A DNA stretch of 64,000 nt from Siphonodentalium dalli (lineage: Eukaryota > Mollusca > Scaphopoda > Gadilida > Siphonodentaliidae), in the NCBI GenBank assembly GCA_032622095.1, contig CP136063.1:216459982-216523981 (forward strand). Reading direction: 5' to 3'. The notes beneath the pieces were generated by a model. The model was not told the origin of the DNA. It searched no databases and was given only the letters and a program-made list of their open reading frames with translations. Positions 37,029 to 43,926 of the stretch are shown in pieces. The position numbers and the translations under genes were made by a program. Each line of letters opens with the position of its first letter. The first letter of the stretch is position 1.

Positions 37029-38308
37029 ACCGGGTCTAAGGGGGCGTTTTTGTCGTTAAGTTGTCAGCTAATTGACAACTCGATTCGGTGATATGATTAT
37101 GCAATCAAAATACCTTCTTGCCAATCGGACCAAAGTATAGGCCGATATAATGGTTATTGACAAGTCCTAAATTATCGTGACCGCTTGCACGCTCAATGGA
37201 TTTATTCATTGAGAAACAAGTATCGCTAATTGACTATTAATCCTATCTCATTCTGTGTTGAAAAGCAATTTAACAAAGGGCATGTCTCTCAACACGAGTT
37301 TTACGCTCTGTTCATCACTTTGTTTGTGACAGGTTTCTGCAAGATGCTTCACCCGCAAAGACAAAATTTGGTGTATTTACATGTATATCTGTATATATTA
37401 AAGGATATAGGAGCTGTCTATCTGTGTGTCCGTTTGTCTGTTCGCAACTGTTCTCCAATACCTCTGGACCGATTTCAATTAAATTAGCGGTGTGGTGATT
37501 CGTGTGTTATAACGGCGTTCGGTTTTAAACGTTTTGATTTAAAAATAAGATATAATTTTTTTTAAATTAAAAAATTATGTTAAATTGAGTAAGGAGTTGA
37601 ATCTAAAAAGAAACAAAATTTTAAATTAAAATTTGTTTCTTTTAAATTTAATTATAATATTTTTTTAATTAAAAACCCCACAAAATAGTTGTAAAAATCA
37701 TATATTTGGGAACATGTCCATATCTGAGCAAAGCTCGCGTGCGAATGAATCAACTGTGACATGATAACACCAGTCGCCACTTAGACACGTCCTCACTCAA
37801 GATTATTTAGAGCTCCACCCTTTGACTGATTGTTTGACAATTCTAAACCGCGATGAAGAAAAGACGGATTCATCATCTCAAGTTTAGCCTCGATAAAGCT
37901 GGTTTAGCTGAACCGCCGAATTAGATTGTTTAGATGCCGGTTTAAGCGTATAAAACGTAAAAAACAATATTGAAATTGACAAAAACTTATCCCCATACGA
38001 TTTATTTGTGTTACTGCTTCTCGCTTATAAATTTCCAATCAAAATATGACCGCTGTCGTAATTATTGATTTTCGCAATCAATATAATGAGGCGGTCCGTA
38101 TGAGGAAAGTACGTTTAATTATCTCGACGATACAGAGACACTACTGCTAAACCACTGGTCTGGCTGGACCAGGTTTAAACCAGATATGACGAATGCGTCA
38201 CTTAGACCTGCGGTCTCGGGTTTAAACCACGGATTTGGCTGACTCATGGTGGTTTAAACCTAGAGGTTTACGTAGACCAGGTTTAAACCTGAGATGACGA
38301 ATCCGGCC
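37029..38308 (-). mobile_element. TIR element family E, copy B (internally deleted)
   Basis: It lies directly against copy A in the same orientation, beginning at the same truncated end (CCGGGTCTAAGGGGGCG). About 500 bp found in copy A (about 35890-36390) are missing, with the junction at about 37675-37690. It ends GAGATGACGAATCCGGCC at 38291-38308. The head-to-tail pair may be one duplicated insertion. Confidence 0.8.
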
Positions 38309-39424: not shown

Positions 39425-40353
39425 GGCCGGATTCGTCATCTCAGATTTAAACCTGGTCTACGTAAACCTCTAGGTTTAAACCGCCGCGAGTTAGCAAAAT
39501 CCGTGGTTTAAACCCGAGACAGCAGGTCTAAGTGACGCATTCATCATCTCTGGTTTAAACCTGGTCCAGCCAGACCAGTGGTTTAGCAGTAGTGTCTCTG
39601 TATCGTCGAGATAATTAAACGTACTTTCCTAATGCGGACCGCCTCGTTTTTATTGATTGCGAAAATAAATAATTACGACAGCGGTCATATTTTGATTTGA
39701 AATTTATAAGCGAAAAGCAGTCACACACATAAAGCGTATGGGGATAAGTTTTTGTCAATTACAATATTGTTTTTGCATTTTATAAGCTTAAACCATCTAA
39801 TTCGGCGGTCCAGCTAAACCAGCTTTATCGATGCTAAACTTGAGATGACGAATCCAGCTTTTCCTCATCGTGGTTTAGAATTGTCAAATAATCAGTCAAA
39901 GGGTGGAGCTGTGAATAATCTCGAGTGAGGGCGTGTCTAAGCGGCGACTGCCGACTGGTGTTATCATGTCACAGTTGATTCATTCGCACGCTCAAATATG
40001 GACATGTTCTTACATAAATCTTGTGGTTTTTGTGTTTGGCTTGTGGCAATCACAAATAGTGCTGTTTCTTACGAATTCATTTGAAGAGTTCAACGTTTTA
40101 ATTTTGACACCAAAACGATGCTACTGCACGACCAGATATGCTATACACATAGTTTGCAATCCTAAACTTATATTGCTATATGAGTCAAATTTGATAACTT
40201 ATTTTTATGTAGATCATGCCACAAAGCTCTACACTGGCTACGCCCATAAATTCCCGTAATATGCTACCAGTTCAAAACCTGGGAACCTTTTTGATTTTCT
40301 GCATGACGGGAAATTTATGACATTGAAAAAAATCAACGCATGTAATATATATA

Positions 40354-40512
40354 GGTTATCACCACCATGTGTATTTCCGAGATCCGTATTCAAGTCGAGC
40401 TGCCTTCTCTGGGCAGTCTATCGACGAGTCCGCAGGACGAGTCGATAGACAGCCCAGAGAAGGCAGCGAGACTTGAATACGGATCTCGGAAACACACAGG
40501 GTGGTGATAACC
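40354..40512. repeat. Long near-perfect hairpin at the Crypton 3' edge
   Basis: The arms of about 72 nt begin GGTTATCACCAC and end GTGGTGATAACC. They close on a GTCC-GCA-GGAC tip. The few interruptions on the plus strand are two symmetrical GA/GA mismatches (GTC-GA-GCTG against CAGC-GA-GAC, and GAC-GA-GTCC against GGAC-GA-GTC), one A-A, one A-G and one A-C. It is absent from the empty-site copies of E, so it belongs to the inserted element. The tip partly resembles the stem II region of a hammerhead ribozyme, but the rest of that core is missing. Confidence 0.9.
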
Positions 40513-40573
40513 AATTTATCTTACAATTCGTCCCATAAAAATGCAATAAAACTCAATTTAAAACAGGAACTAT

Positions 40574-40579
40574 TTTATT
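40574..40579 (-). terminator. Candidate polyadenylation signal of the Crypton gene
   Basis: The complement reads AATAAA about 80 nt past the recombinase stop codon, before the terminal hairpin. Confidence 0.5.
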
Positions 40580-40660
40580 ACGCGCAATACAAAACGTACA
40601 CAATATTCTCAGCACGCGACGTCGTGAGAAGTCAAATTCCGAGAAAACCACGTCACGTGA

Positions 40661-42427
40661 CTATTCAATTTCGCTTTGACTGGAATCCGATTCAATGATG
40701 AGTCGACGATATTTACGTTTCGAATGTTCGACATAATTATCACTTTTAACAGGATAATTGTAATTATTGATGGTGCAATTTCCTTGGATGGTGATATTGT
40801 TGGCGAGAGGCAATGCAGGAGATGATTGTCTATTCACTGTTTTCACGAATTTCGTACTTTCCGACACTTCAACAATCGACTTCTGACTTGCCGAATTCGC
40901 AGTGTCACGTGTGTCAGCAATTCTAGTCGGAACGGAATTCGAATTGTCAACATTGGAATCAGAAGTTGTTGTTCGTTTTGATGCTATGCAGAGGATGTCC
41001 GACATTTTTCGTTGCATTTCTACAGATGCAACAGAATAATTATTCACACTGGCAATATTTCTGTGACCTGAAAGCTGTGCAATGGTGTTAGGGGTAATAT
41101 CATTATGAAGAAGTCGAGTGCACGTTGTTTTCCGGACGCAGTTATTGGTCTTTCTACCAGGAAGATCACCTTTCTCTGCCATCTTCTTCATTATTTTGGC
41201 CAATGCATGTTCACCCATAGGTTGAGCCTTATACCAGAAAGGTGAATCTGGTTTCCGATTATGATTAACTTGAATGTAAAATGGTGAATCAGGCTGCAAA
41301 GTGTTCAATGGACGCTTTGATTCGAATACCTTGTATGCCGCAACTGGACATTCTGTAGCTGGAACTCCAGGGATTGCGAATGCTTTTGGACTGAATGCTC
41401 GGTGGTGAGTATTGGCACTTTCTCCTGTTCGGGTTTTTGTCGTTCTTTCATTGTGTTTAAGAAATTCAACACCATTCGCGTCCTTCTCAAGTGTAATGTC
41501 ACCCCATCGCAAACTATGTTGCTCTTTTCCTGTACGCATGCCGAATAATTTAACATTATTGTACCACATCAGATTTATTAAACCGTAGGGGCAGTCAACA
41601 CTCAGCACTGATCTCTCCCTGAGAAGAACTTCCTCACTTTCCGTTATAGGTTCCGCTGCATTTGGGCGATTACCTTTCCCAGCTTCTTTCAACTGCTTCC
41701 TCTTGCTTGCTAACACAATCCTGGAACCTTCAAATTCACGGTCCATGCATATTCGATAAGGATATTTCTTTTCCCTCAAGTATCGGTCAATACCACGGTG
41801 GTATGATGTCAATGAGTCTGGCTCATAATCAGATCCATCAGCTTTCCGTATAGACAGAATGAATGATCCTATATAATTGTCCATATGAATTGGGTCAATT
41901 GTCTCAATTGCTTGAAATTCATTTCTCTCTGACAAAAATCTTGTGAATGCCCTTATCACAACTTGTGTCTTCTTCACTGTATTATCATTTTGCATGCTAG
42001 TAACAAAGTCATCTTTCTCAGAATCATGAACATCAACAAATGTTGGTGCCTTGGAATTTGATGCAGGTCTCTGAATATTCAGATTCACCACTGATGGTTC
42101 ATTAACAGCAGCAGTACTAGTGGTATCACCATCACTGGCATCAGTGGTTGAAATACTTGCATTTCTGTTGTTAGCATCGTTGCTTCTTCTCCATCCCCAC
42201 AATGGAACTGATGACCCATAACCAGAAACACTGGCTGATATTGTGGCATCTGCAGGCAACATTTGAGAATTACACTGACTTTCCACTAAAACATTGCTTT
42301 CACTAGTTTTAGAACTGTCTACTTGGTCGATTCGGCTCACAACATCATGCAAATCGTCATCGTCTCTGAATAGCTGCATTAGATCATCGTATGATACCTC
42401 ATTTAGATTAATTGCTTCCAATTCCAT
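40661..42427 (-). CDS. Crypton-type tyrosine recombinase (DUF3504/ZMYM-KIAA1958-like), intact
   Basis: This is an uninterrupted 588-codon gene from ATG at 42425-42427. Residues 1-150 are acidic and Ser/Asn-rich, probably disordered. Residues 150-250 fit the core-binding domain (TRFLSERNEF, Y-x-P-x-SL-x-x-YHRGIDRYL). Residues 260-480 fit the catalytic domain: Arg298 in FGMRTGKEQHSLRW, Arg432 in NNCVRKTTCTRLL, His455 in QLSGHRN and Tyr464 in VNNYSVAS, the likely nucleophile. Where the HxxR motif is expected, residue 429 is Asn instead of His (a one-base change), which may reduce activity. The C-terminal 100 residues are polar and end in a basic then acidic patch. Active Cryptons are thought to use this enzyme for excision and integration through circular DNA. 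It is either young or under selection, given its intact frame among decayed neighbours. Confidence 0.85.
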   Translation of the reverse strand: MELEAINLNEVSYDDLMQLFRDDDDLHDVVSRIDQVDSSKTSESNVLVESQCNSQMLPADATISASVSGYGSSVPLWGWRRSNDANNRNASISTTDASDGDTTSTAAVNEPSVVNLNIQRPASNSKAPTFVDVHDSEKDDFVTSMQNDNTVKKTQVVIRAFTRFLSERNEFQAIETIDPIHMDNYIGSFILSIRKADGSDYEPDSLTSYHRGIDRYLREKKYPYRICMDREFEGSRIVLASKRKQLKEAGKGNRPNAAEPITESEEVLLRERSVLSVDCPYGLINLMWYNNVKLFGMRTGKEQHSLRWGDITLEKDANGVEFLKHNERTTKTRTGESANTHHRAFSPKAFAIPGVPATECPVAAYKVFESKRPLNTLQPDSPFYIQVNHNRKPDSPFWYKAQPMGEHALAKIMKKMAEKGDLPGRKTNNCVRKTTCTRLLHNDITPNTIAQLSGHRNIASVNNYSVASVEMQRKMSDILCIASKRTTTSDSNVDNSNSVPTRIADTRDTANSASQKSIVEVSESTKFVKTVNRQSSPALPLANNITIQGNCTINNYNYPVKSDNYVEHSKRKYRRLIIESDSSQSEIE

Positions 42428-43926
42428 ATTGTTTTAAATTTCGTACTTTCGCAAGAATCGATCGATTTACGTAGTGTACTCTGCAGAAATTGCAAATGCA
42501 GACGACGCTTTAAAAGCATCTAAATAACACATTAAAATTAATTCATGGGAATGCAATGAAATTACGGACTTTTCGTAAGTAATCTCTCTTCTATCCTTGA
42601 CAAAATATAATTTATTTCAAATTCCATTCTGTATTTTATCGAATAAAAATTGCCGTCAGCAGCTTCTGTCAGATCAAGACCGTACTGAATTTCGGGGAAT
42701 TCCCTACTTCGCTTATAATAGAAATTGTTGAAATAGTCCGTATTCGTGCGCACTGTAAACAATGTGTTGCTTTTTAAATTTCCAATCATTTTGCGGTGCG
42801 TTTTTTTAGTTATTTTCGGTCCTGTCCTGTCCTCTCTCCACCTTATTTCAACTTTGTTAACACAAGTATTTATTATGTTACGTTCGTAGCGCACGCTGAT
42901 GTTATTTTACGGCTTTTAAATTTGTTATTCAGATGCTTTGTTTTGAAAACAAGCCAGTTGTCAAAACGCACGTGCACTCGCTGTTGCCATCCGCGATATC
43001 CTTGTTGCCATCCAGGATACAAGATCGGAAACCGCCTAGGCGTTTACGCGTGTATTTGAAGGAAAATAGCTAAATTGTCAGATAAGTTTCTTTATTAAAA
43101 GCTGTCCCTATGCATGGTTGCCCACTTCCAACAGTTCAAATGCCGCTTATGGTGTGCACTCATAATTACATTGCCTTTTCTTGACTGGCCTCTTGGTCAG
43201 GATTGACTCGATCACAGAGACTTTATTCAGCGCCAGAGGGGCTTTGCTCACATTTTGATCATTTGAACATTTTAATTTAAAAAAAATTAAATTAAATTTA
43301 AAACTAACAAATGTTAATTTAAATTTGAAATTTTGTTTCTTAATTCTAGATTCAACTCCTTACTCAATTTAACACAATTTTTTCAAATTATATTTTTATT
43401 ATTTTTAAATCAAAATGTTTAAAACCTAACGCGTTATACCCACACGAATCACCGCACCTAATTTAATTGAAATCGGTCCAGTGGTAGTGGAGAACAGTTG
43501 CGAACAGACAAACGGACATACAGGTAGACAGCTCCTATACCCTTTAATATATACAGATATACATGTAAATACACCATATTTTGTCTTTGCGGGTGAAGCG
43601 TCTTGCAGCAATCTATCACAAAGTCACGGACAGAGCGTGAAACTCGTGTTGAGAGACATGCCCTTCGTTAAATTGATTTAAACACATAATGAGTTCGGAT
43701 TAATTGTCAATGAGCGATACTTGTTTGTCAATGAATAAATCCATTGAGCGTGCTCGCGGTCACGATAATTTATGACTTGTCAATAAACATTATATCGGCC
43801 TATCTTTTGGTCCGATTGGTAAGAGGGTATTTTGATTGCATAATCATATCACCGAATCGAGTTGTCAATTACCTGGTAACTGAACGACAAAAACGCCCCT
43901 TTAGACCCGGTTTGGCTGGACCCACT

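Follow-up and report, generated by a model that had tools for sequence, protein, structure and literature searches.

What role does a near-perfect hairpin play at the edge of a Crypton? The question is raised by one element in a 64,000-nucleotide stretch of Siphonodentalium dalli DNA (the whole stretch is referred to here as the window), for which an earlier note made from the letters alone had described a long stem with paired GA/GA interruptions and offered several possible functions. The stem and its interruptions proved real, and among the functions offered a recombination signal was the best supported.

Fold and geometry of the hairpin

The hairpin consisted of 159 nt at exactly 40354-40512 of the window on the forward strand. 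Its RNA minimum free energy was -135.4 kcal/mol relative to -44.0 (sd 4.6) in 200 shuffles, a z score of -19.95, and none of the 200 shuffles folded as well. Two symmetrical GA/GA internal loops were present, each with 5'-C-GA-G-3' opposite 5'-C-GA-G-3', and three single mismatches (A.G, A.C and A.A) occurred in the stem. The palindrome exceeded the ends of the hairpin, with ungapped arms of 91 nt (40341-40431 and 40435-40525) that were 89% complementary. In DNA, stable structures are formed by tandem sheared G.A pairs and by C-GNA-G loops. Feature positions are collected in Table 1.

Table 1. Positions of the Crypton, its recombinase gene and the parts of its hairpin end in the window
Feature	Position	Strand	Basis or remark
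Whole Crypton copy, 2.7 kb	40349-43085		Hairpin end left, plain end right
Left half of target, AATAT (consensus RATAh)	40344-40348	+	Target logo of 33 left flanks; crossover inferred after 40348
Element spacer ATATAGG, 7 nt, from crossover to inner arm	40349-40355	+	Found at this end in 15/17 body-selected copies that have a hairpin base
Inner arm TTATC, 5' side	40356-40360	+	Pairs with GATAA 40506-40510; sequence, fold
Outer GA/GA loop	CGAG 5' side 40396-40399 / CGAG 3' side 40467-40470	+	5' side 47 nt from crossover
Inner GA/GA loop	CGAG 5' side 40425-40428 / CGAG 3' side 40438-40441	+	
Tip loop GCA closed by C-G (C-GCA-G)	40432-40434	+	Several other copies have GTA
Short spacer CCAAT, 5 nt, opposite ATATAGG	40511-40515	+	Sequence
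Outer arm TTATCTTACAAT	40516-40527	+	Repeats the element's right end in inverted form
Tyrosine recombinase ORF, 588 aa, DUF3504 / Phage_integrase	40661-42427	-	Pfam, catalytic-position alignment, fold match
Right end of element ATTGTCAGATAA	43074-43085	+	Common terminus of full-length copies; agrees with the inverted inner arm save for 1 mismatch

The Crypton and its recombinase

Crypton boundaries are described as difficult to characterize in the main text of the 2011 Crypton survey (PMC3212892). The left boundary was placed here from the flanks of other copies and from tandem joins, and the right boundary at 43085 is the right end shared by full-length copies in a search with sequence adjoining the hairpin. 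Flanks to the left of hairpin copies were unrelated except for a short AT-rich target motif while those to the right were alike, which together with the common right end therefore defines the element as 40349-43085 and places the hairpin at the Crypton edge as the earlier note had held.

Two ORFs of at least 100 aa lie inside the element, an unassigned one of 110 aa and the recombinase, which is the only long one. The 588-aa product matched the Pfam families PF12012 (DUF3504, E 3.9e-23) and PF00589 (Phage_integrase, E 9e-11). Across 12 aligned recombinases, where R-K-H/N-R-H-Y was expected, R298, K331, R432 and H455 were invariant and Y464 nearly so, and the recombinase in the window carried N at position 429 where H is usual. 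An AlphaFold2 model of modest quality (mean pLDDT 57) gave predicted fold matches in the PDB to Cre, XerA and Tn1549 Int, with the integron integrase IntI (2a3v) at ranks 45-46, and sequence similarity to the Tn916/Tn1549 integrases was found at E 0.013-0.023. The 2.7-kb element is an animal Crypton with a DUF3504 tyrosine recombinase, and this membership is kept despite the terminal repeats since their reported absence is a published negative observation and no definition.

A basic patch followed by an acidic tail, of the type KRRRIxVIESDSD, was present in most of the 12 aligned recombinases and reads YRRLIIESDSSQSEIE at the C-terminus of the window protein (40664-40705); it resembles a SUMO-interaction motif. 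Beside the Crypton are inverted arms of about 308 nt (38001-38308 and 39425-39733), 93-95% complementary in two pieces, which are perhaps another terminal-inverted-repeat element; the search for them started at 38000 and the arms may run further.

Copies of the family in the same genome

All Crypton comparisons were drawn from this one genome (2.23 Gb in 9 contigs). A search with the hairpin returned 896 first-look candidates, 40 of which were scored, and each of the 40 was a copy 97-100% identical, giving a lower bound of at least 40 hairpin copies for what is termed family A. Insertion sites were dispersed in the genome. Short non-autonomous copies without about 40892-42521 had kept the hairpin, and the right end too in those read far enough. 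The hairpin was 94-97% identical to that of the window in five copies (L039 and L041-L044) with an ORF identity of 80-84%.

A second set of 21 family-A copies was selected by the element body, being the window copy and 20 from a search with that body, and four of these had no hairpin. L037 and L040 start near the inner arm, and L045 and L046 have common flanks and only the right foot of the hairpin left. Deletion of the palindrome or hairpin-free movement may account for the four, the two being indistinguishable. Absence of the hairpin from other copies, named in the earlier note as a result that would count against its reading, was not the rule: hairpin and loops were found in other copies and families, and the hairpin was missing from these 4 of 21. 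To its left, L034 is flanked by tandem repeat units of about 26 bp, within which AATACATATAGGTTATC occurs, a sequence identical to the left junction of the element.

Hairpins across Crypton families

Twenty-five DUF3504 loci (L047-L063 and L067-L074, three of which continue in L064-L066) were hand-picked to span families, seventeen before and eight after hairpins outside family A were seen. A terminal hairpin with GA/GA was present at 22 of the 25, twenty read directly and two (L057 and L073) counted as positive via separate placement as their hairpins are partly outside the fetched stretches. Positives with fewer than two intact loops were L053, L055 (outer loop now paired as CTCG/CGAG), L058/L065 (tip lost), L067 (remnant TGAG/CGAG), L069 and L072, and the loci not positive were L060, with a CTCG/CTCG hairpin of opposite polarity, L068 and L071. 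The hairpin was terminal in family A and in families B-E.

Loops were counted in 13 family representatives, one per family, where all 25 two-by-two internal loops were GA/GA and 23 of the 25 were CGAG/CGAG. Among other hairpins at the same loci only one of eight two-by-two loops was GA/GA and none of the eight was CGAG/CGAG. Both counts leave out L060. Also left out were L051:147-269 and L073:1702-1852, hairpins with CTCG/CTCG loops that were read as neighbouring elements in the other orientation. Conservation of GA/GA, raised earlier as something to be checked, was supported, and rather than varying at random the mismatches recur in other copies and families. Their spacing was also regular. 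In all 13 families a distance of 45-47 nt separated the crossover from the start of the outer CGAG, where the crossover in families G-M was set by an ATA rule in place of copy comparison, and the inner CGAG lay 23-31 nt past the outer in the 11 families where it was placeable; in family L the partner of the inner CGAG is CGAA. The tip pattern of CGAG, short stem, small loop and CGAG recurred in other families with different stems and loops.

Stem sequences diverged while pairing was maintained. The 5' arms were 21-38% identical between families A-E and F, H-K (25 pairs), and the 13 families form groups whose stems cannot be aligned with one another. In the two segments scored, arms paired with their own partners at means of 90.6% and 96.0% (lowest values 44.1% and 66.7%, n=10 families), relative to means of 37% between different families (n=90 for each segment). 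Two to four Watson-Crick pair types were seen at every scored position except the loop-adjacent one in each segment, and 966 stem pairs included 15 G.T pairs and 6 A.C mismatches. Conserved pairing taken alone could also be maintained by palindrome correction.

At L060:3030-3176, the CTCG/CTCG hairpin is located between two tandem 525-aa recombinase copies, and the hairpin of this family may belong to the opposite end of the element. Downstream of the DUF3504 locus at L071, hairpin units of about 99 nt that contain GCGAGTCTCC are arrayed over L071:602-1519. No relatives outside this genome were confirmed in viral (24 pattern stretches) or prokaryotic (301) contigs, which are poor places to find an animal element.

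The hairpin base as a recombination site

The right end of family A reads ATTGT(A/C)AGATAA, and its inverted copy is located just inside the hairpin. Such an inverted copy of the other end was found inside the hairpin in nine of nine families (A-C and E-J; 12-mers with at most one mismatch), a test that took in neither K, L, M nor D, the right-end relation of D being visible separately in its sequence; extra 12-mer matches occurred in E (one), F (two) and J (one, the hairpin's own start). Head-to-tail tandems at L003 and L021 joined the right end to the next hairpin as GATAA-ATATAGG-TTATC, as in a circle junction. Both autonomous and short copies are represented in these tandems. The 5' spacer exceeded its counterpart by exactly 2 nt in A-K, the 11 of 13 families in which the spacers were resolved.

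Because the inverted copy of the other end lies just inside the hairpin, a circle junction would fold into an attC-like layout. The folded single strand would have an outer arm ATTGTAAGATAA/TTATCTTACAAT, a spacer of 7 nt on one side and 5 nt on the other, an inner arm TTATC/GATAA and then the long stem. Judged from its sequence, the hairpin base is a recombination site.

On the ORF strand, AATAAA preceded the hairpin in five of the seven families checked. In families B-E it is in the inner arm, no more than about 12 nt from the hairpin, and this arm may thus serve both recombination and polyadenylation.

Target site and the apparent record of one strand

The family-A target was RATAh^AT-N5-TAT from 33 left and 29 right flanks, with the left flanks having to align from hairpin base 1, a rule under which copies with another spacer could be hidden. 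Nearly the same target was found for family F, the stem of which is unrelated to that of family A. Comparison of the L030 insertion with its empty site, GATAA|ATCACC in five copies of the invaded repeat, revealed neither duplication nor loss at this one insertion. The equivalent search for L031 returned only its own two flanks and diverged matches of 76-87%. Element and target agreed over only about 2 bases of the spacer.

Spacer sequence at the two ends was read as a record of which strand had been inherited. A hairpin base was present in 17 of the 21 body-selected family-A copies, and among these the element spacer was at the hairpin end in 15 and absent from the other end in 16 (at most 5 of 7 letters matching). 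Left junctions of family F had the element spacer in all 18 that were readable (of 20; L089 and L096 were missed by the anchor), while 18 of 20 right junctions were without it, the other two being a tandem join and an ambiguous case (L116, ATGTATA, 6 of 7 letters). A double-strand exchange would leave heteroduplex spacers and both arrangements would then be expected in descendants. Given this distribution, descendants appear almost always to have inherited the exchange of one strand, the one with the GA/GA kinks, whose 5'-to-3' direction leads from the crossover into the hairpin.

Two copies departed from this pattern, so the one-strand rule is not absolute. In L038 the spacers were the opposite way round (left AAAAAGT, right ATGTAGG), which looks like inheritance of the other strand, and the hairpin tip was shortened; this copy is possibly a rare product of that strand. 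The left end of L042 was mirrored, with a copy of the outer arm preceding it to give a fully symmetrical palindrome. Thermodynamic strand choice was considered as a further argument and dropped, as DNA parameters favoured the folded GA strand by a mean of less than 1 kcal/mol and 3 of 13 families went the other way.

Proposed mechanism and alternatives

Taken together, the hairpin is probably the structured half of the Crypton recombination site, acting as a folded single strand like integron attC, and on the same sequence evidence a single-strand, integron-like transposition of the Crypton seems fairly likely. Wherever the joined ends were single-stranded, in a circle or a replication intermediate, the GA strand would fold so that outer and inner arms form a duplex site around an unpairable spacer. 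The recombinase would bind this folded site and cut after ATAA on the GA strand, and the cut strand would be joined to an AT-rich double-strand target (RATAh^AT-N5-TA). The second strand would not be exchanged, so the junction would be resolved by replication and copy number could rise. The likely part of the GA/GA kinks, and the least certain step, is to label the strand and to place the recombinase or a partner on it. For animal Cryptons in general, the chances seem about even that they are replicative single-strand transposons whose recombinase recognises a folded hairpin with two tandem G.A kinks, the outer of them a set distance away from the crossover, forming a eukaryotic counterpart of attC recombination in which copies are gained without a DDE transposase.

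The main competing explanation is an ordinary double-strand tyrosine recombination of a circle in which the hairpin is accessory, whether as a topological filter or as a cruciform or hairpin to which the recombinase or a host factor binds; biased repair or a very short overlap would then explain the one-sided spacers. Integrases of the Tn916/Tn1549 family tolerate unlike spacers, and Tn1549 Int is among both the fold and the sequence matches of the Crypton enzyme. The tandem joins fit a circle junction, L038 supplies the opposite arrangement, and the core GATAA-ATATAGG-TTATC has inverted arms about a 7-bp spacer, within the 6-8 bp given for tyrosine recombinases in the main text of PMC3212892. 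However, neither a strand-specific GA/GA at a fixed distance nor a spacer asymmetry of 2 nt follows from this explanation, which should also yield both spacer arrangements from heteroduplexes, and as a double strand the family F junction is without a TTAT right arm. We regard it as unlikely.

It is rather improbable that the hairpin is a replication signal, such as a rolling-circle or strand-displacement start or stop comparable to the Helitron 3' hairpin, with the recombinase only joining or resolving the products. Terminal hairpins are used by Helitrons and IS200/IS605 (in part of PMC3627910) and head-to-tail tandems also fit rolling-circle products, whereas no Rep or helicase gene accompanies the recombinase, the one long ORF listed for the element, the recombination half-sites fall at the hairpin base, and the distance to the loop is measured from the crossover.

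An RNA function appears very doubtful, whether through a structured antisense transcript, as a signal at the 3' end or as a source of small RNAs. The RNA fold is strong, and weak matches to microRNA precursors on the minus strand fell below gathering scores. Nevertheless, GA/GA is antisense to the ORF and would appear as UC/UC in the recombinase mRNA, the hairpin is preceded by AATAAA on the ORF strand in five of the seven families, and short non-autonomous copies keep the hairpin. Fifteen G.T pairs in 966 are also few for an evolved RNA and, beside 6 A.C mismatches, give no clear sign of a G.T excess that would point to RNA. A separate foldback element next to the Crypton or a chance palindrome is barely conceivable and is refuted for this genome by the fold (0 of 200 shuffles), the boundaries and the copy of the element's other end encoded beside the hairpin, with the same hairpin type at 22 of 25 sampled loci, even though hairpins without GA/GA also occur at these loci.

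Conservative recombination alone adds no copies. A folded, strand-specific site would, if true, provide Cryptons with a replicative route, extend single-strand site-specific recombination beyond bacteria to animals, and allow Crypton ends to be annotated by rule. DUF3504 has been domesticated repeatedly in animals according to the main text of PMC3212892, including KCTD1, ZMYM genes and QRICH1, so a preference for folded DNA may bear on these proteins too.

Comparison with known systems

In the hammerhead ribozyme, GA/GA is found next to a stem, and the GTCC/GGAC stem with GA/GA seen here resembles that motif. The earlier note had taken the tip GA-GTCC-GCA-GGAC-GA as an echo of hammerhead stem II, a reading that was not borne out, as Rfam gave no match at gathering level in the window and only three sub-threshold microRNA-hairpin matches on the minus strand, none of them a hammerhead, in 40250-40650 at E <= 10. 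Other Crypton families have other tips and this one is a single case of the wider pattern with varied stems and loops. A hammerhead or other known RNA was rejected on these scans.

Among mobile elements, Helitrons and IS200/IS605 resemble the Crypton in having a hairpin at one end (in part of PMC3627910) and differ in their enzymes, the Crypton having a Cre-like tyrosine recombinase and an inverted copy of its other end at the hairpin base. The Tn916/Tn1549 integrases are tyrosine recombinases similar in sequence and fold to the Crypton enzyme, whereas the Crypton nearly always shows the same one of two possible spacer arrangements and has a terminal hairpin.

Published animal Cryptons (CryptonA), as covered in the main text of PMC3212892, share the recombinase family, the single-gene layout and abundant non-autonomous derivatives with the element described here, as well as the absence of target duplication, seen here at the one empty site read. 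Their movement by circle excision and reintegration was proposed by analogy with bacterial elements (PMC3212892, main text). In contrast to the present element, with its conserved terminal hairpin and inverted arms at both ends, that survey found no terminal repeats in animal Cryptons, and the word hairpin does not occur in its main text. Hairpins in animal Cryptons or attC-like sites in eukaryotes were not reported in the titles or abstract openings among the matches listed, a scope that excludes subscription papers and repeat databases. The conserved terminal hairpin and inverted end arms may therefore be new relative to the 2011 survey within the literature searched, with prior description elsewhere possible.

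The closest likeness is to integron attC, in which, according to parts of PMC2727003 and PMC4792948, structure is kept while sequence varies, a central spacer is unpaired, asymmetry is strand-specific, crossover is in the outer box and a single exchange is resolved by replication. The Crypton has an imperfect palindrome conserved in structure and not in sequence, outer and inner boxes around an unpaired unequal spacer (11 of 13 families), and a crossover in the outer box. Its junctions would fit the exchange of one strand in most copies (L038 being opposite and L042 and L116 ambiguous). Unlike attC, the site belongs to a self-encoded animal transposon with no promoterless cassettes, its targets are dispersed AT-rich sites and not attI, and its stem is much longer with symmetrical GA/GA loops instead of extrahelical bases. 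Strand selection in attC depends on the extrahelical bases and the variable terminal structure has no role in it (part of PMC2727003), so GA/GA in the upper stem of the Crypton hairpin would act differently.
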